A stretch of DNA of 64,000 nt from Verrucomicrobiales bacterium (GTDB lineage: Bacteria; Verrucomicrobiota; Verrucomicrobiia; Limisphaerales; UBA11358). The stretch is taken from assembly GCA_028712475.1 (NCBI GenBank), contig JAQTQB010000008.1, forward strand, positions 1-64,000, given 5' to 3'. Numbering within the stretch: the first letter of the stretch is position 1; the number at the start of each line of letters is the position of its first letter. The notes beneath the pieces were generated by a model that saw only the letters and a list, made by a program, of their open reading frames with translations, ran no database searches and was not told the DNA's origin. Shown here one piece after another: positions 3,533 through 43,920 of this stretch. The translations under genes were made by a program, and so were the position numbers.

Positions 3533-6109
3533 ATGAGAATGTTTGACCAGTCCGTCACCCCGGAAAGTTGCCCGCGCTACCGCCGGCAGGGGGATGGTTC
3601 GCCCCGTTTTTATTCTTTTTGGGCGATCAATGCCTCGCTGGATGCCGCCCGGCTGCAATCTCAATTGGATCGTTTGAAAGCGTCCGGGTTGGATGGGGTG
3701 GTTTTTCACCCCCGTTATTATCCCGACACGCCACCGTATCTCGACGGGCGCTACCTGGAGCTGGTTTCGGGAGCGATCCTGCATGCTAAATCCATCGGGC
3801 TCGCCTTTTGGATCTATGATGAAAACGGGTGGCCGAGCGGCACGGTGGGCGGTCAATTGCTGGCACGCCATCCCGCTGACGCCCAATCCTGGGCGGGACT
3901 CGGAACGGAGGTGCCAGAGCGTCCACTCGCGGAATTCAAGCATGGAGGCCAGCGCTGGTATTTGGGGGAACAGCCTGGCCCCGGGGTGGATTATTTCAGC
4001 CGGGCGATGACGGATCATTTCATCGAAATGACCTATGAGCGTTACCGTTCGGGACTGACGCCGGAGGCCTTTGATCATGTGGGCGCGTTTTTCTGCGATG
4101 AGCCGGAATTCGGCCTGGGTCATGCCTACTCACTTTTGCCGAAAGCGGGCGCAATTCCCTGGACCCCGCGTATGCCGGAGCTTTTCAAACAACGTTACGG
4201 ACGGGATCTCATCCCGCTGATTCCCCTGCTCTTTTTCCCGGGGACGGGATCCGCCGAAGCGCGAATCCAATTCTGGGAACTGCTGACCGATGTTTTCTGC
4301 GGAAACTTTGTGGGGCCGATCAAGGAGTGGTGCCGCCGGCACGGCAAGCTGTTTACGGCCCATGTAAAGGGTGAGGAACATCCGCTTTTTCAGGTGCCAA
4401 CATCCGGCTCATGCCAGCAGTTCTTCCGCCATCTCACCCTGCCCGGAATTGATGCCTTGGAGCGTTATCCTGCCAACAATTTTTATCCCCGCCAAGTTTC
4501 GACCGCCGCCCGTCAATTTGGGAATGGTCGCTGCATGGTCGAGGCGTTTGGCGGTTCCGGGTGGGGAAGCACCCCGGAAGATCTCGAACGCTATCTGCTC
4601 TGGCTCGGACGCAACGGCCTGACCGACTTCGTCATGCACTTGAGCCAGTATCGCCTCGACAGCGCGGCCCTACAGGATTGGCCGCCCTCGCAGCCGTTGC
4701 ATCTCACCTGGAGCCACCTGTATGCCGAGGTGCTCGACCGGGTTCGGCGCGAGTTGCAAACCCGGCCGCGCGAGGTTGCGGACACGCTGGTGATCGCACC
4801 CTATCGCGCCATCATGGCTAACTGTCAGCCGGCGGACTTTTTGAAAACCAATATTCATAATGCCGCCACCTATCCAGACGGTCCGGCTGGCGACATTAAT
4901 ACGCGCTTCATGAAGTTAGTGGAGTCTCTGCACCTGGCGGACACGAACTTTGATGTGGTTGATGAGCGCACCTTGGAACAATACGGCGAAATCTCGCAGG
5001 ATCAGCTTCGCATCGGCAATTGCGGTTATCGCCGCTTGATTATTGACGAGGCGGCCCGCTTGAATAAAGCGGCGCAGGCTCTCGTGAAGCCATTGGTCGT
5101 GCCGACCACTCCGGCAGTTACCACCAGAATAACGACGGTTTTACCGTTGGTTCCGCAGGTCATCATTCCGGTTCGTTGGCGATTGGTGGAACACCCGGTC
5201 AACAGCCTTTTCCTCGAGTCCAAAGTGGAAGCCGACGGTTGGTTCAGCGCCACTTTTGCCAGCGGCTTCCTGCCGTTCGATACGGAACTCGAATTTGTCT
5301 TTGCGGATGTGATCGCCGAGTTTTCCATGAATGGTCTGGAGTGGAAATTGTTTCCGTCCGACGAAGGCTCCCGATTAAGGTTGAATGCGGCATCTTTGCG
5401 CGCCATGAACCATCTGCGCTTTCGTCCCGCGCGTTTGGTCGAGCGGCCTTTTGTGTGGCTGCAGGGCCGCTTCCGGGTCTGCGCGATGAGCCAGTTTGCC
5501 GACGGCCCCGGGGAAACCGTCAAGACCAACGGCCCATTCCGAATCGAGGTCGCCCGCAGTGCCATCAGGTCGAATCTGGTCGCCGACGGGTTTCCTTTCC
5601 TGCGCCACGCGCTGAAGATGGAATGTGAGGTGAAGTTTCCAGACGCAGTCTCCGCACTGGTGCTGGTGGGCGGGACAGCCGATGCATTGCGACTGAACCT
5701 GGACGGCAGCCAGCAGGACTGGATTTGGCCAATCAACGGTGAACATCGGTTTGCAGCACCCCTGGCCCCGGGCAGTCATCGCCTGGGGATTGAACTCATT
5801 CCCAACGGATATAATTTCCACGGGCCGCACCACTATTTCGGAGGCGACCGGTTCGTGGTCAGTCTCGACCAGTTTCATGGCCGGAAAAACTTCGCCGATC
5901 CCACAAATGCCCCGGCAATGACCCATGTTTCTGCCTGGCATTTCCGGCGGTTCGACTTGCCGACAGGCATCGCACTCGGACCGGCCTCATCCTTCCAGCT
6001 TCAATCCGACGCAATTGTCACTGGCACCGGTAATGGCTTGCCCCGCCTCCCAATACCAAACCCAACGGTGAAAGACGTTGCCAAATCTTCCAATACCAGC
6101 CGTTATTGA
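3533..6109 (+). CDS. Glycoside hydrolase, GH106 (alpha-L-rhamnosidase)-like
   Basis: An 858-residue protein resembling the GH106 alpha-L-rhamnosidase superfamily. The N-terminal half looks like the catalytic barrel: FYSFWAINASL at the start, LKASGLDGVVFHPRY, then AFWIYDENGWPSGTVGGQ, a signature typical of these enzymes, and GAFFCDEPEFG around residue 190. The C-terminal 350 residues look like beta-sandwich modules. There is no signal peptide, unlike most neighbours, so it may act in the cytoplasm on imported oligosaccharides. The ATG lacks a ribosome binding site and sits directly after the GCTATATAGC motif; a later start cannot be excluded. Context (GH78, GH28, galactosidases) supports a role in pectin breakdown, but the exact linkage is not known. 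Confidence 0.75.
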   Translation: MRMFDQSVTPESCPRYRRQGDGSPRFYSFWAINASLDAARLQSQLDRLKASGLDGVVFHPRYYPDTPPYLDGRYLELVSGAILHAKSIGLAFWIYDENGWPSGTVGGQLLARHPADAQSWAGLGTEVPERPLAEFKHGGQRWYLGEQPGPGVDYFSRAMTDHFIEMTYERYRSGLTPEAFDHVGAFFCDEPEFGLGHAYSLLPKAGAIPWTPRMPELFKQRYGRDLIPLIPLLFFPGTGSAEARIQFWELLTDVFCGNFVGPIKEWCRRHGKLFTAHVKGEEHPLFQVPTSGSCQQFFRHLTLPGIDALERYPANNFYPRQVSTAARQFGNGRCMVEAFGGSGWGSTPEDLERYLLWLGRNGLTDFVMHLSQYRLDSAALQDWPPSQPLHLTWSHLYAEVLDRVRRELQTRPREVADTLVIAPYRAIMANCQPADFLKTNIHNAATYPDGPAGDINTRFMKLVESLHLADTNFDVVDERTLEQYGEISQDQLRIGNCGYRRLIIDEAARLNKAAQALVKPLVVPTTPAVTTRITTVLPLVPQVIIPVRWRLVEHPVNSLFLESKVEADGWFSATFASGFLPFDTELEFVFADVIAEFSMNGLEWKLFPSDEGSRLRLNAASLRAMNHLRFRPARLVERPFVWLQGRFRVCAMSQFADGPGETVKTNGPFRIEVARSAIRSNLVADGFPFLRHALKMECEVKFPDAVSALVLVGGTADALRLNLDGSQQDWIWPINGEHRFAAPLAPGSHRLGIELIPNGYNFHGPHHYFGGDRFVVSLDQFHGRKNFADPTNAPAMTHVSAWHFRRFDLPTGIALGPASSFQLQSDAIVTGTGNGLPRLPIPNPTVKDVAKSSNTSRY

Positions 6110-37817: not shown

Positions 37818-39161
37818 TCACATCCGTTTCCGCGCCTGCACCGGCCGCTGTTTCAAGTCCGCCACGATCCGGTCCACCTCGGGGATGGCGTGGGCGAAAT
37901 ACTTTTTGAATCCCCGGCAGAGATAGTTCAGGCCCGGCTCGCCGTCCGCCGTGCGGATGAACCGGTTCTTGGGACATTCCCCCCAGCAGTCCGTCAGATA
38001 CGCGCAATGCCGGCAATACGCCGGCAGGGTCTCATTCTTCGCGTAACCGAACTTCACCTGCGTCCGGGAAAACACCTGGGCATCGAGCGCGCTGTCCTTG
38101 ACGTTGCCGAGGCGATACTCCGGATAGACGTAGTGGTCGCAGGCGTAAACGCTGCCGTCATTTTCCAGCGCCACGCCTTTGCCGCAAAATTCTCCGTAGA
38201 TGCAGACCTGCGAACCCAGCCCCATGTGCTGCGACACCAGCGTCTCGAAATGGTTCACCAAAACCTTGCCCACGTCATTCGCAGCCCACTGGTCAAAAAC
38301 GCGGCACAGGAAATAACCCCAGTCATCGGGATCCACCGACCAGTCGGTCACGATGGAATTCGGATGGCCTGGCCGGGCTTCGGGTTCGCCGTCACGGGGC
38401 AGGACGGCGCTGTCCCACTTGTGCGGCGCCGTCTTCTCGAAGCCCTTGTATTCGGCGATGGGAATGAACTGCATGTAGGTGGAGCCGGTTTCATTCCGGA
38501 GAAAACGGTAAACATCCAGCGGCTTCCGTGCGTTGAAACGGTTGACGCAGGTGAGCGTGTTGAAAGGAACTCCATGGCGTTTGAACAGTCTGGCCGTGTT
38601 GAAAACTTTTTCAAACGTGGGCCTGCCGCCTTTCGTGACCCGGTATTTGTCGTGGATTTCCCGCGGCCCATCAATGCTCAACCCCACCAGAAAACGGTTT
38701 TCCTTTAGAAACTCGCACCATTCTTCATTGATGAGCGTGCCGTTGGTTTGAAGGTCATTCTCGATTTTTTGGCCGGGCCTGGCGTATTTCTTTTCGAGCG
38801 CGACGACCTTGCGGAAAAAATCCAGCCCCATCAAGGTCGGTTCGCCGCCCTGCCAGGAAAACACCACCTCCGATCCGGTCACACCCGCGATGTATTGCTG
38901 GATGAACCGCTCCAGCGTCTCGTCGGACATGCGCCCGGCGCCGGGGCCGTTGGGAAGCGTCTGCTTGCTCAAATAAAAGCAATAGCTGCAATCGAGATTG
39001 CAGGCGGAACCGCCGGGCTTGGCCATGACATGAAACCGGCGGCGCGACTGGTTGCCGAGCAAAGAAGGCGCGTCGTATTTGGTGGCCGGCCGCCGCGAAC
39101 CATCGGCCTCCACAATGGTGGCCGGAATTGTGCCGGCGTTGTTTGTGTCCAAGGGATCCAT
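37818..39161 (-). CDS. Radical SAM anaerobic sulfatase-maturase-like enzyme (anSME)
   Basis: A 447-residue radical SAM protein with CNLDCSYC (Cys54, Cys58, Cys61) in the first strand, followed by VVFSWQGGEPTLMG, NDLQTNGTLINEEWCEFLKE and VGLSIDGP. The SPASM part holds further clusters: CGKGVALENDGSVYACDHYVYPE and CRHCAYLTDCWGECPKNRF. This is the layout of anaerobic sulfatase-maturating enzymes, which turn a Cys or Ser of sulfatases into formylglycine without oxygen. No sulfatase gene lies in the window. The ATG has TAAGG just upstream. An oxygen-dependent FGE is encoded 2.4 kb away (41577-43220), so both maturation routes may be present. Confidence 0.85.
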   Translation of the reverse strand: MDPLDTNNAGTIPATIVEADGSRRPATKYDAPSLLGNQSRRRFHVMAKPGGSACNLDCSYCFYLSKQTLPNGPGAGRMSDETLERFIQQYIAGVTGSEVVFSWQGGEPTLMGLDFFRKVVALEKKYARPGQKIENDLQTNGTLINEEWCEFLKENRFLVGLSIDGPREIHDKYRVTKGGRPTFEKVFNTARLFKRHGVPFNTLTCVNRFNARKPLDVYRFLRNETGSTYMQFIPIAEYKGFEKTAPHKWDSAVLPRDGEPEARPGHPNSIVTDWSVDPDDWGYFLCRVFDQWAANDVGKVLVNHFETLVSQHMGLGSQVCIYGEFCGKGVALENDGSVYACDHYVYPEYRLGNVKDSALDAQVFSRTQVKFGYAKNETLPAYCRHCAYLTDCWGECPKNRFIRTADGEPGLNYLCRGFKKYFAHAIPEVDRIVADLKQRPVQARKRM

Positions 39162-39351
39162 GGCCTTAATGTGAAAATTTGGGTGACGGAATAACGGGCT
39201 TCAAATGAAAACGCCCGACGACTTTATACGCCGCACATTCTTCAACAACTCACCTTTTCTTGCGAAGGAGCGAACCTCTTTTGCCACCCACCCAAGAGTT
39301 GCTCTTTGCCCGGTGAATTGACGCCGCCGCCGCGCTTCTCTAATCTCCGGC

Positions 39352-39760
39352 ATGGCGAAAAAAAATTTCCGGCGCGGAAACTTCCGAGGCTTCCGGTGGT
39401 TCCGGTGTAGCGTCGAGCCTGCGGCTCGATAAATCCGGCCACAGGCCGGACACTACACGGCAAAAACCCAGCTCCCTCCTCGACACCCGCGTCGTCTATT
39501 GCGGCGACAATCTGGAACAGCTCGCCAAGCTGCCTGATGCCTGCGTGGATTTGATTTACATTGATCCGCCGTTCAACTCCAACCGCAACTACGAGGTCTT
39601 CTGGGGCGAGACCAAGGAGAAGCGCGCCTTTGAAGACCGCCACGAGAACACCAAGGCTTACATTGACTACATGCGCCCGCGCTGCGTGCAACTCGCCCGC
39701 GTCCTCAAAAAGACCGGCAGCTTTTATTACCACTGCGACTGGCACGCCAGTGTTTGTAAA
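39352..39760 (+). pseudogene. 5' fragment of an adenine-specific DNA methyltransferase gene
   Basis: A continuous frame runs from about 39359 through RVVYCGDNLEQLAKLPDACV, DLIYIDPPFNSNRNYEVF (motif IV DPPF) and KAYIDYMRPRCVQLARVLKK to TGSFYYHCDWHAS, then ends at unrelated sequence. This is the N-terminal third of a Mod-type DNA methyltransferase. The apparent start ATGGCGAAAAAAAA (39352) is one base out of frame at a run of eight A, so either an indel or a sequencing slip separates it. A hairpin element (39405-39458) is inserted in frame. The matching C-terminal piece lies at 40838. Confidence 0.8.
39405..39458. repeat. 54-bp hairpin element with GTGTAG/CTACAC ends
   Basis: GTGTAG and CTACAC bound two short internal hairpins (CGAGCC-TG-CGGCTCG and CCGGCC-ACA-GGCCGG). 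Its length of 54 bases is a multiple of three and it keeps the methyltransferase frame open, so it is a miniature palindromic insertion within the coding region. Confidence 0.6.
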
Positions 39761-39811
39761 ATTTCGGATAAAACCAGAAGAGAAATGGTGTAAAAATCAA
39801 AGGATAAAGTT

Positions 39812-40795
39812 ATGGCTGAATTTATTCATTCAACAGAGTCGCAAATTGATGGACCTTTTTTGATTGACCGATCTCAAATGGAGGCATTGGACAAGATACT
39901 CCAAGAAGAGTGGGCGCGGTTTAAAGAGAAACGTAATGAAATGTTGGATCAATCGGTAGAAGAACGATTCAAAGTAGAACACGCTAGATCATATAACAAA
40001 GAAGTGCCCAGCGAAAAGCTTCGTGAAACCATCCGAGAAGAACTTCAAAAGTCTTATGATTTTCGAGAACGAAAAGAGTGCTTATTATATTTGCGCAACG
40101 GTTCAGTTGCCAAAGTGCCAGATTTTGTTACAGCCTTCCGAGAACCAGACCTCCAAGATAAAGAACCAAATGGGTTTTATGCCATTTTGGAAAGTTGCGG
40201 ACATTCTTGTCAAATTAGGCTTACAGGTCGGAGAGCTACGCTCGAAGTTGACGTTGCTCCAAAACGTAACCAATTTGTGCAGGAGACATTGATGGTTCTT
40301 AAAAATTGGCAAAACGCAGTTCGCCCGCCAAAATGGCAAACCTTGTGGTTAAAGACTGTTGATTTTGGAATTGCACATTGGATGATTTGGATTTTAGCGT
40401 GCTTTTTAAGTTTCACAGCAATTGAGAAACAAGCTGAAACTACACAAGTTTACACATATAGTCAGGAGGCAAGCCAGTTACTCAACGCAACAAATCTAAC
40501 AGCAGAAAATCAAGGTAAAGCCATACAACTCTTGCTGGCCAAAACTTATGGTTATGCTCCGCAACCGATTAAGCGTAATTTCCCCGGCTGGTTTTTAATT
40601 CTTGTTTTTTGCGGGCTGGCTTATTGCGTTGCATTTTCTTATGCCCCCACAGTTTCAATTGCAATAGGTTTAGGTGAAAAAAAAGTTCAGTTTTGGCGAA
40701 AATATTCAAGGTTTATTCTCATTACAACCCCTACATTTATTTTTGGCACTTTCTTTTGGCCAAAAATTGAAGCCATACTTAAATCTATTCTATAG
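39812..40795 (+). CDS. AT-rich gene for unknown three-helix membrane protein
   Basis: A 327-residue protein with AAAGGATAAAG before the ATG. Residues 1-180 are soluble and charged (helical ALDKILQEEWARFKEKRNEM, then a beta-rich part around residues 90-150). Three membrane helices follow: about 189-204 (HWMIWILACFLSFTAI), 258-277 (GWFLILVFCGLAYCVAFS) and 300-316 (RFILITTPTFIFGTFFW), with a roughly 50-residue loop after the first. I do not recognise the family. Its base composition is visibly lower in GC than every neighbour, and it lies exactly between the two halves of a broken DNA methyltransferase gene, so it arrived by transfer. A defence or toxin role is possible but unproven. Confidence 0.72.
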   Translation: MAEFIHSTESQIDGPFLIDRSQMEALDKILQEEWARFKEKRNEMLDQSVEERFKVEHARSYNKEVPSEKLRETIREELQKSYDFRERKECLLYLRNGSVAKVPDFVTAFREPDLQDKEPNGFYAILESCGHSCQIRLTGRRATLEVDVAPKRNQFVQETLMVLKNWQNAVRPPKWQTLWLKTVDFGIAHWMIWILACFLSFTAIEKQAETTQVYTYSQEASQLLNATNLTAENQGKAIQLLLAKTYGYAPQPIKRNFPGWFLILVFCGLAYCVAFSYAPTVSIAIGLGEKKVQFWRKYSRFILITTPTFIFGTFFWPKIEAILKSIL

Positions 40796-40837
40796 ATAGA
40801 AAAATCGGCCACCTGTTGTTTTGAAAATTTACACGGC

Positions 40838-40912
40838 ATGATTGGCATTGATATTTCGCCCACCGCCTGCCGCGTCATGGCCAAGCGCCGGCGCGACGTT
40901 TGCGGCCTGCCG
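40838..40912 (+). pseudogene. C-terminal fragment of the same DNA methyltransferase
   Basis: The frame from 40838 encodes MIGIDISPTACRVMAKR, then RRDVCGLPE. FIGIDxSPxACxVMAxRL is the AdoMet-binding FxGxD segment of Mod-type methyltransferases carrying the N-terminal part seen at 39352-39760. The middle third is missing and replaced by the AT-rich gene. After DVCGLPE the family match stops and a REP-like element follows. Confidence 0.7.
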
Positions 40913-40955
40913 GAAAGAAGCCGCTCTGGCGCGCTGGACGCTCTTCAATTTCATC

Positions 40956-41027
40956 GTAGCAGCCGACGTGAGTCGGCTCAAACTTTTCACCCGCCGGAAT
41001 AATGAGCGGACTGACGTCCGCTGCTAC
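40956..41027. repeat. REP-like palindromic element, copy 1
   Basis: Starts GTAGCAGCCGACGTGAG and ends with its near reverse complement (GACGTCCGCTGCTAC), 72 bases in all, with inner pairs GTCGGCTCA. The same left end recurs at 55210, so this is a dispersed miniature element. Confidence 0.7.
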
Positions 41028-41241
41028 GGGATTTACGTCATGGAGCAGGAGAAATCGTCCGCCGTCCCCTTGAAAATCCGAACCGGGATTTGCCGGGCAC
41101 TGATCGAACCGCCTTTTGTCCCTTTGTCCCATTTTCATTCAAGCGACGGGACAAGGTGTGTCGCAGTTTCGGTTTGGCCGGAAATAACAGCCCGGTTTGA
41201 AGGCAGATGATCCTTGGTTCGTCTTTGAAACCCATTGGGAA

Positions 41242-41493
41242 ATGATTTCCCTTCCAAGGAAAATCACTTTTAAGGTTAAACAAATGATTTCCCAAGGTTG
41301 GTTGAACTTTTTCCTTCCAAGGAAAATGTTTTTCTTAATTAAGAAAACGGTTTTCCTTACCTTCCCAAAGATTTTCCTTCCAAGGGAAATGTTTTCCCTC
41401 CCAAGGAAAATGATTTCCCTTACCTTCCCAAACATTTTCCTTCCAAGGGAAAAGGTTTTCTTAGTCAAGGAAATGATTTCCCTTCCAAGGAAA
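41242..41493. repeat. Array of twelve 21-bp imperfect palindromic units
   Basis: Twelve adjoining units of exactly 21 bases, without spacers. Typical core: TTTTCCTT, then CC, then AAGGAAAA, with ATG between units; some units are TTAATTAA or CCTTACCTTCC variants. Both strands are open through the array: the plus strand reads as seven-residue repeats (MISLPRK, FLPREMF, SLPRKMI, SLTFPNI), the minus strand as LGRKIFG-like repeats. Because 21 bases are two helical turns, every unit faces the same side of the DNA. A frame from a TTG at 41197 to 41574 (125 codons) runs through it; whether it is translated is unknown. Confidence 0.85.
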
Positions 41494-41576
41494 ATGAAGG
41501 AAAAACCTTTGTTTTTGGTGAAAACAGCCCGACGCCATCCACCATGTCTATGCAAGGCAAGTTGCCGCCGGTAAAA

Positions 41577-43220
41577 TTATTTGTCTTTCACGCAGCGGAA
41601 TCCGACGTGATTGCTGCCGGTGTCAATGTCGCCTTTGCCGCGCGTCCCCATCATGTAACGCGTGCAATACTCATCCGTGCAGAGGAACGAGCCGCCGCGA
41701 TGCACGCGCTGGGGCTGGTCATCGCCGGGATTGTAGCTGGAGGCCGGGCCTTGCGGATTGCGCACCACGGCCGCGCCCGCCAGCTTCAGCCGCGCATAAT
41801 AGTCGGGCCGATACCAGTCGCTGCACCATTGCCAGACGTTGCCAGCCATGTCGTAAAGCCCGTAGCCGTTCGGCGGAAACTGCGCGACCGGCGCGATGCC
41901 CGCATAACCGTCTTCGCCCGTGTCTTTCACCGGAAACTTGCCCTCGAAAATGTTCGCCATCCATTTGCCGCCGGGTTTCAGTTCATCGCCCCACGCAAAC
42001 GTCTTGCCGGTCAGGCCGCCGCGCGCGGCAAATTCCCATTCCGCCTCCGTGGGCAGTCGTTTGCCCGCCCATTTCGCGTAAGCCGCCGCGTCGGCGTAGG
42101 CGATCTGCACCACGGGATAGTTTCCTTTTCCCTTGAGGTCGCTGTCCGGCCCGGTGGGATGACGCCAGTTCGCGCCATGCACATAACGCCACCATTGGAA
42201 GTAATCATCCAGCGGCACGGCGTTGGTGGTGGGCGTGAAGACGGTGGAACCGGCGACGAGATTTTCCGGCGGTGCGGTGGGGAACTGTTCCTTCGTCGGC
42301 GCGATCTCCGCGATGGTCTTGTAGCCGGTGGCCCTGACGAATTTCTCAAACTCGTCGTTCGTCACATCCGTCTTGTCCATCCAGAAACCATCCACATAAA
42401 CGCGGTGGATGGGCTGTGAATCCTGCACCGATTGCAATGTGGCCATGGTGCAGATGCCGTCGTTCGGAGTCAGGCAGCCCATGGAAAATTCGCCGCCGGG
42501 AATCCACCCCATGCCGGCTGGCGCGTTTGTGGGCGCGGGAGTTGTGTTCGGAATCGTGGGGGCGAAAGGGGACGGCCTCGTCGCGGTGTCGGTGCTTGCC
42601 GTTGTCGTCTGGGCGAAAGCCGCAGCCGTCATCAACGCGATGACCGCAGCCGTGGCGGCGGCGCGGACGGACGACGGTTTCTTGATCTTGACCGGAATTG
42701 GAACGGCATCACGCCGGAGGCTGGCGGAGGATTTTATTTTGATGATTGGTTGCGGGACGGATTTGGCTTTCAAATTTTTGAGATTGCGCACCGGGACTTT
42801 TTTCGCCGTTGGTGTCAATTCTGTTTCCGCCTGCGGCTCCACGCCACCGGACAGCCAGAGGATGGCCTCCTCGAAACTGTCGAACGCCTGGACTTTCCAG
42901 CCGCGCAGTTTGGCGATGAACGCGAACAGCCGGGCGCGATGATGCGGGTCGGAACCGTAAAGCACCGCCAGCCGTTCCTTGTGCGTGAACCCGACTTCAC
43001 GAAATGTGTTCACCAGCGTCACCAGGTCATTGGGCGAGAACACCGGCTTCGGCCCCGGATGCAGCGCCCGCAGATCCAGCAGGGCCTGGTTGATCCCCCG
43101 TTTGCAGCAAGCCGACGCCAGTTGCGCCAGCACCGCCTTGCTGGCATCCAGGTCAAAATGGCCCTTCGGCCCCAGCCGGATGAATTCCTGGGCGCGGATG
43201 ATTTGAAGTTCCATTGGCAT
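41577..43220 (-). CDS. Formylglycine-generating enzyme (FGE) fused to a STAS-like domain
   Basis: From the ATG at 43220 the protein has 547 residues. Residues about 1-125 resemble a STAS/SpoIIAA domain (HFDLDASKAVLAQLASACCK, LLDLRAL). A basic linker and a membrane helix (AAATAAVIALMTAAAFA) follow, so the C-terminal part is probably outside the cytoplasm. The rest is an FGE-sulfatase domain: WIPGGEFSMGC, VYVDGFWMDKTDVTNDEF, RLPTEAEWEFAARGG, MAGNVWQWCSDWY, and RVHRGGSFLCTDEYCTRY with both active-site cysteines (514 and 519). Many bacterial family members lack these; their presence argues for true oxidation of sulfatase cysteine to formylglycine. No sulfatase is in the window. Confidence 0.85.
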   Translation of the reverse strand: MPMELQIIRAQEFIRLGPKGHFDLDASKAVLAQLASACCKRGINQALLDLRALHPGPKPVFSPNDLVTLVNTFREVGFTHKERLAVLYGSDPHHRARLFAFIAKLRGWKVQAFDSFEEAILWLSGGVEPQAETELTPTAKKVPVRNLKNLKAKSVPQPIIKIKSSASLRRDAVPIPVKIKKPSSVRAAATAAVIALMTAAAFAQTTTASTDTATRPSPFAPTIPNTTPAPTNAPAGMGWIPGGEFSMGCLTPNDGICTMATLQSVQDSQPIHRVYVDGFWMDKTDVTNDEFEKFVRATGYKTIAEIAPTKEQFPTAPPENLVAGSTVFTPTTNAVPLDDYFQWWRYVHGANWRHPTGPDSDLKGKGNYPVVQIAYADAAAYAKWAGKRLPTEAEWEFAARGGLTGKTFAWGDELKPGGKWMANIFEGKFPVKDTGEDGYAGIAPVAQFPPNGYGLYDMAGNVWQWCSDWYRPDYYARLKLAGAAVVRNPQGPASSYNPGDDQPQRVHRGGSFLCTDEYCTRYMMGTRGKGDIDTGSNHVGFRCVKDK

Positions 43221-43302
43221 GGCAGAAATTAAATTGCCAGTCTCCAGCGCAAATGCAAATGCAGAAGTGACCCGGACGCCCCGGTTTTGTGGACTCCCAA
43301 AA

Positions 43303-43920
43303 TCAAGGCTGGGCTGGCGGCGGGTTGGTGATTCCGAGCCGCATCTTGATCTGATCAAGGTCGCGTTTGATTTGAGCCACGTCAGCCTCCATCTCCATCC
43401 GCCGGGCGGTCTCGGCTTTATCCGGTGCCAGCAACTTGATCTGGTTCAGCAAGTCAGCCCCCACCTGCCGGGTTCCGGCATTGACCTTGTCGGTGATCCG
43501 GTTTTCCTGCGCCGTCAGATCCTCCTCGATCTGCGCGGTGGTGAGATACATCGTGCGCAACTGGTTGGTATGGTAGGAATACGCCAGCGCATGTTCGGCC
43601 TGCCGTTCGGTGTCGGCAACCTGCAGTTCCGACTCGATCTTCCGGTCCACCGTCAGCAGCAAATAGAGCGTGTTGGTGTGGAAGAAGAACGCATCCTCGT
43701 GGCTCTTCTCAAAGTAGGAATTGTTCATCTTGTCCAACATGGGCGCCAGCGAGGTCAACTGCGTCTGGATCGTCGCCAGTTGGTTGGCCTGGTTTTGCTG
43801 GAGCACAACCATCTTCTGCGACAGGACCGCAATCTTTTCAGTGTTGATCCGTGTTTGTTTGTCGCAGCCACAAAAGAGGGCTGCTCCGGCGAGCGCCAGC
43901 AAAAGGTGTTTATTTTTCAT
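43303..43920 (-). CDS. Coiled-coil lipoprotein of unknown function
   Basis: A 205-residue protein with a lipoprotein signal (LLLALAGAALFCGC, lipobox FCGC). The mature part is almost all helix with heptad spacing (INTEKIAVLSQKMVVLQQNQ, VAQIKRDLDQIKMRLG) and a middle region with YFEKSHEDAFFFHTNTLYLLL. I do not recognise a family. It lies 82 bases upstream of the FGE fusion gene on the same strand and may be co-transcribed with it. Confidence 0.75.
   Translation of the reverse strand: MKNKHLLLALAGAALFCGCDKQTRINTEKIAVLSQKMVVLQQNQANQLATIQTQLTSLAPMLDKMNNSYFEKSHEDAFFFHTNTLYLLLTVDRKIESELQVADTERQAEHALAYSYHTNQLRTMYLTTAQIEEDLTAQENRITDKVNAGTRQVGADLLNQIKLLAPDKAETARRMEMEADVAQIKRDLDQIKMRLGITNPPPAQP

Follow-up and report, generated by a model that had tools for sequence, protein, structure and literature searches.

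What kind of element is the tandem array of short palindromes that interrupts a conserved gene pair in this Verrucomicrobiales genome? The initial annotation offered three readings: a multimeric protein-binding site, a structured RNA or a repetitive peptide. The window analysed here is the whole stretch of 64,000 nucleotides that contains the array, and the features that matter for the argument are the following.

37818-39161, minus strand: radical-SAM/SPASM (anSME-like) gene, the usual downstream partner of the FGE gene
39162-41576, no strand: 2.4-kb insertion, with the FGE-fusion gene on one side and the radical-SAM (anSME-like) gene on the other
40955-41030, no strand: REP-like palindrome with a GTAG tag; about 50 copies are dispersed in the genome
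41120-41241, plus strand: left flank of the array, sharing about 100 bp of homology with the corresponding side of the array in genome G030 (GACARGGTGTGTCGCAGTTT)
about 41242-41497, no strand: 21-bp array of 12 units, consensus TTTTCCTTCCAAGGAAAATGA, with a 63-bp higher-order period
41498-41540, plus strand: right flank of the array, sharing about 40 bp of homology with that in G030
41577-43358, minus strand: neighbouring FGE-sulfatase-domain fusion gene, its 3' end toward the array

The array and its closest relatives

Positions 41242-41493 (252 bases) are made of twelve consecutive 21-nt units in a single register, ungapped and without any indel. Identity at lag 21 is 122/231, compared with a maximum of 86 among 10,000 shuffles, and at lag 63 it is 131/189, which reveals the higher-order period; TRF likewise reports periods of 21 (score 106) and 63 (score 234). 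The units had been called exact: their count, length and palindromy stand, but they deviate from the consensus TTTTCCTTCCAAGGAAAATGA 68 times over the 12 units, so that length is constant and sequence is not. This consensus is an imperfect palindrome (8/9 pairs, P=0.0085 after axis optimisation), and a second dyad lies across TGA (AAGGAAAATGATTTTCCTT). Since the units vary and have no spacers, and no cas gene was found among the array neighbours inspected, the locus is indeed not a CRISPR, as had been stated from the start.

The insertion that carries the array also contains a truncated methyltransferase fragment, a 327-aa ORF and the GTAG-type REP, and the FGE and radical-SAM genes that it separates are directly adjacent in G030, L012 and L071. 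A locus on contig C10 (L154:14145-14351) matches the first 69 residues of the DNA-methyltransferase fragment (window 39545-39793) without a difference, and the fragment is, judging by its sequence, a recent partial duplication. The GTAG REP family has already been described in Verrucomicrobia (PMC3733652).

The window unit recurs once more in the same genome, on contig C24 (G000:C24, about 40795-41190), making two loci in total; the C24 array has another GTAG REP-like copy about 220 bp away. A period-only scan covering 2.0 of the 3.4 Mb of this genome returned three non-coding degenerate period-21 arrays, namely those of the window and of C24 and a third at C10:94061-94370, which has a different unit and weak symmetry. 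The C24 array occupies an RNase HIII locus. Of 29 such loci examined in other genomes of the genus, 27 have no array, and the arrays at the remaining two (G018 and G071) are unrelated in sequence. Arrays unrelated in sequence were recorded in the same place as that of C24, 3' of RNase HIII, at L273:2557-2925 (TTAGCAGCTGCTAA, period 21) and L270:251-546 (TTGTAAGCTTACAA plus CATCCGT..ACGGATG, period 41); this side of the gene is possibly an array hot spot.

The closest homologue of the window array is found in G030, with 73% identity and homologous flanks on both sides. It is located on a contig other than that of the G030 FGE gene, 127 bp upstream of a gene of the fn3 family described below. 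A search for the unit in related genomes and a comparison of copy number had been proposed at the outset; in a MAFFT alignment a single gap of 21 nt, exactly one unit, accounts for the difference in length between the two arrays. Among the 49 genomes of the genus the left-flank sequence GACARGGTGTGTCGCAGTTT occurs beside these two arrays only, and the right-flank homology stops before the sigma-54-like site and the fn3 gene of G030, neither of which has a counterpart in the window. A mobile flank common to the arrays was considered and rejected, the flank being shared with G030 alone.

A family of arrays with a two-turn period

Intergenic dyad-symmetric arrays with a period of 21 bp (rarely 20-22) occur in other genomes of the genus and in three further families of its order, and nearly every one has a private sequence; other palindromic units found include TTTCCCTGATCAGGGAAA, TTCCTAGCTAGGA, TTTCCCAATATTGG and TTTACCTTGCAAGGAAAA. 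The first further arrays came from pattern and BLAST searches in genus and order, and their symmetry is biased because resemblance to a palindrome was how they were detected. In a less biased test, on arrays chosen by their neighbouring gene alone and with the axis optimised and columns shuffled, 14 of 20 had a dyad axis at P<=0.05. Consensus units were compiled for 50 arrays; symmetry is weak or absent in L249, L306, L307 and L308. Covariation between the arms of a unit is weak (pooled core z 2.98, mainly due to two arrays), a pattern more in keeping with independent half-sites or recent amplification than with RNA hairpins.

Across 182 in-register units of 15 arrays we counted 1089 substitutions. 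The units of L137 alternate between 20 and 21 bp and a few arrays have periods of 41, 44 or 60, so the geometry in common is that of two helical turns and not that of seven codons. The suggestion that the 21-base period is kept while the sequence drifts is hence borne out by its recurrence in dozens of unrelated arrays, and by the one-unit difference with G030. At L139:9753-9878 (G025 contig C103) a second 21-bp array, built of another unit, directly abuts the first. Heptanucleotide arrays of GATTACT/GATCACC type were also observed at L071:2026-2339 and 4873-5238, the unit being inverted at both ends of the longer one; they resemble the cyanobacterial STRR repeats.

Neither array nor protein matches were found in plasmids and viral contigs. 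Among named genomes of other phyla 2 of 17 gave hits, with no array in the loci examined. We found no description of such arrays in the open-access PMC literature, which is weak evidence of novelty, and the family is apparently undescribed so far.

The fn3-domain gene downstream of the arrays

Reading the neighbours of 15 arrays brought out a recurrent partner, a protein of ~205 aa with an N-terminal half (motif LTGNxxFPTP) that has no family match in the libraries searched, and a C-terminal fn3 (fibronectin III) domain. No rep or par gene was seen next to these 15 arrays, the neighbours being read by eye. A five-member profile of the protein matches 25 of the 49 genus genomes, with 0-19 copies each. 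For the survey of this family, loci were chosen by the protein profile alone, provided that they had enough upstream sequence, and an array was called when lag-21 identity was at least 0.52 within 900 bp. By this measure 49/66 fn3-family genes have an array upstream, but only 3/67 have one downstream, and only 3/564 control genes have one upstream (Fisher P=1.4e-54, a value that is too small since paralogues are not independent and 3 of the 66 are profile seeds). With the seeds removed the count is 46/63. Furthermore, all 59 fn3 loci with a strong period of any kind have their best lag at 20-22 bp or at twice or three times that value (42 in 28 loci, 21 in 19, 63 in 6 and 41 in 3, then 62, 44 and 60). 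In a family member from outside the genus (G098, L165) the array likewise precedes the fn3-family gene.

Several arrays have no fn3 gene, and those of the window, C24, L135 and L166 sit between convergent genes. A rule based on flanking orientation, with the array as terminator between convergent genes, agreed with the first two arrays but broke down when 16 were examined. A profile search of the window's own genome found no fn3-family member, and its arrays are therefore orphans; a 237-aa gene beside the C10 array was considered as a candidate and rejected for having no detectable membership. We infer that the gene was lost from this genome rather than never present. A small conserved ORF (MANYDTPGLTYDSGALYDD...) was noted just upstream of the fn3 genes of the MAKVKF clade (L292, L293, L294, L300, L302 and L323).

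Array content correlates weakly with the linked protein (Mantel rho 0.115, 4/999). Indeed, pairs with a protein similarity of 0.8-0.9 have an array 8-mer Jaccard index of 0.02-0.09 (0.08 at a protein similarity of 0.9) while the period stays, which means that array sequence diverges much faster than the linked protein.

Between array and gene we found sigma-54-like promoters, using the standard -24/-12 consensus TTGGCACGNNNNTTGCW, adopted after the motif had been noticed in these same upstream regions. Sites scoring at least 11 of 13 are present in 13/67 fn3 upstream regions compared with 9/1122 controls (Fisher 6e-12), and sites scoring at least 10 in 17/67 compared with 33/1122, an enrichment of about 9- to 24-fold; the opposite strand of the fn3 upstream regions has 0/68. 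These sites are mostly at -70 to -115, so that wherever a promoter is recognisable the array is upstream of it and should lie outside the mRNA of the gene. The majority of fn3 loci have no recognisable sigma-54 site, nor does the window copy have a sigma-54-like one. Sigma-70-like promoters were considered too and are not enriched (2/68 compared with 17/1122).

Interpretation and comparison with known systems

We consider it rather probable that arrays and gene form an undescribed two-part module of Verrucomicrobia subdivision 3, in which a private two-turn palindrome array stands before most copies of a multi-copy helical-plus-fn3 gene, and in which architecture would be selected and sequence left free (a sequence-agnostic or co-diversifying DNA platform). 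On the narrower proposal, that the window array is an orphan belonging to a family of regulatory, putatively protein-binding arrays that act in cis and are normally placed upstream of the fn3 gene, our judgement is evenly balanced. A multimeric site on one face of the DNA, as first suggested, is nonetheless still the best reading, and we infer protein binding. About 10-24 dyad-symmetric sites, two helical turns apart, would lie just upstream of the promoter of the fn3 gene; most likely successive palindromes on one helix face would be filled by a DNA-binding protein that forms homodimers, such as a sigma-54 enhancer-binding activator or a nucleoid protein, and once bound it would control or insulate the gene. 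Turnover of the array would be fast, through copying of 21/42/63-bp blocks and substitution, with period and symmetry retained. In the window's own genome the fn3 gene would have gone and the array been left behind. Several observations count against a regulatory role. With as many as 19 fn3 loci in one genome and mostly private arrays, many DNA-binding proteins would be needed, and none was identified; in addition, several arrays have no fn3 gene, most loci have no recognisable sigma-54 site and the dyads of some arrays are weak or absent.

Alternatively, array and fn3 gene could be a mobile or gene-family-spreading unit, the array acting as a recombination or replication site and the orphans being leftovers. 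The window array does lie inside an insertion and its flank-sharing homologue is at a different locus in G030; the fn3 family is patchy and multi-copy; and 27/29 RNase HIII loci of other genomes are empty where this genome has an array. We nevertheless regard this as unlikely: no transposase or integrase is consistently found beside the arrays (L134 alone has a transposase-like neighbour), there is no plasmid or viral-contig match, and no terminal repeats or target duplications have been demonstrated.

A smaller chance is left to non-functional satellite DNA, that is, to a palindromic seed amplified by slippage. Higher-order periods of 42/63 bp, array-private sequences and copy numbers that differ by whole units are what satellites typically show, and the weak covariation between arms points the same way. 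Against this, the register has been kept through the 1089 substitutions, the 21-bp period is common to dozens of arrays unrelated in sequence, and placement before one gene family is far from random (P about 1e-54, with paralogues that are not independent).

The array could also be transcribed into a structured or hairpin RNA. Its palindromic units fold well (predicted folding z of -4.8 for the plus strand and -2.2 for the minus strand), but the structure is not supported inside units, as the arms of a window unit pair with each other no better than with those of other units (P about 0.2 over nine pairs; core z for covariation 1.8). An Rfam search matched only a tRNA and nothing in the array; a period that is a helical multiple has no obvious reason in RNA, and the arrays stand upstream of the sigma-54-like promoters. 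We therefore think this RNA quite improbable.

A gene for a repetitive seven-residue peptide is scarcely credible: one frame per strand is stop-free throughout the window array (MISLPRK/FLGREI), as had been pointed out, and true coding 21-bp heptads do exist elsewhere in the genome, in the coiled coils of a LuxR-like protein (L159:3704-4225, RTEQAE repeats) and a CheB/CheR-like protein (L223:17283-19964, NEELQ repeats), but the open frames are not conserved, that of the G030 homologue being FPWKRNH, L135, L137 and L138 have no stop-free frame, L137 alternates 20/21 bp and codon-score gene calls pass over the window array.

Returning to the reading of the arrays as protein-binding sites, we compared them feature by feature with known systems, among them enhancers, iterons and VNTRs, and none fits fully. 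As in the enhancers of sigma-54 activators (UAS), dyad sites recur in phase along one face of the helix, and at the minority of loci where -24/-12-like promoters are recognisable the sites lie upstream of them; unlike the enhancers, the arrays have 10-24 sites instead of 2-3, the palindrome differs at nearly every locus, and the window copy has no such promoter or linked gene beside it. Plasmid iterons and partition centromeres consist of tandem sites about two helical turns apart, an arrangement and spacing that the arrays share. On the other hand, the arrays are private, stand on chromosomal contigs, many per genome, and no replication or partition gene was seen among the neighbours read. 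REP/BIME elements are also short intergenic palindromes, and a REP copy adjoins the window array, but REPs have one genome-wide sequence and a GTAG/CGTC tag, whereas the arrays have neither and keep a strict 21-bp period. Minisatellites and VNTRs have the same head-to-tail units, whole-unit changes and higher-order repeats; in contrast, array units are only ~50-60% identical yet in register, one period holds across unrelated arrays, and these are fixed before one gene family, with a period and location beyond chance. CRISPRs resemble the arrays in their regularly spaced palindromic cores and variable linkers, and differ from them in that the arrays have a period of 21 bp, linkers of 3-11 bp, no cas genes and no spacers.

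What dozens of paralogous loci, each in front of a member of one gene family, have in common is not a sequence but a strict DNA geometry, with dyads every two turns. Either many dedicated DNA-binding proteins co-evolve with the arrays or one machine reads the geometry, and both would be unusual. The arrays are, furthermore, a first handle on this fn3-domain family.
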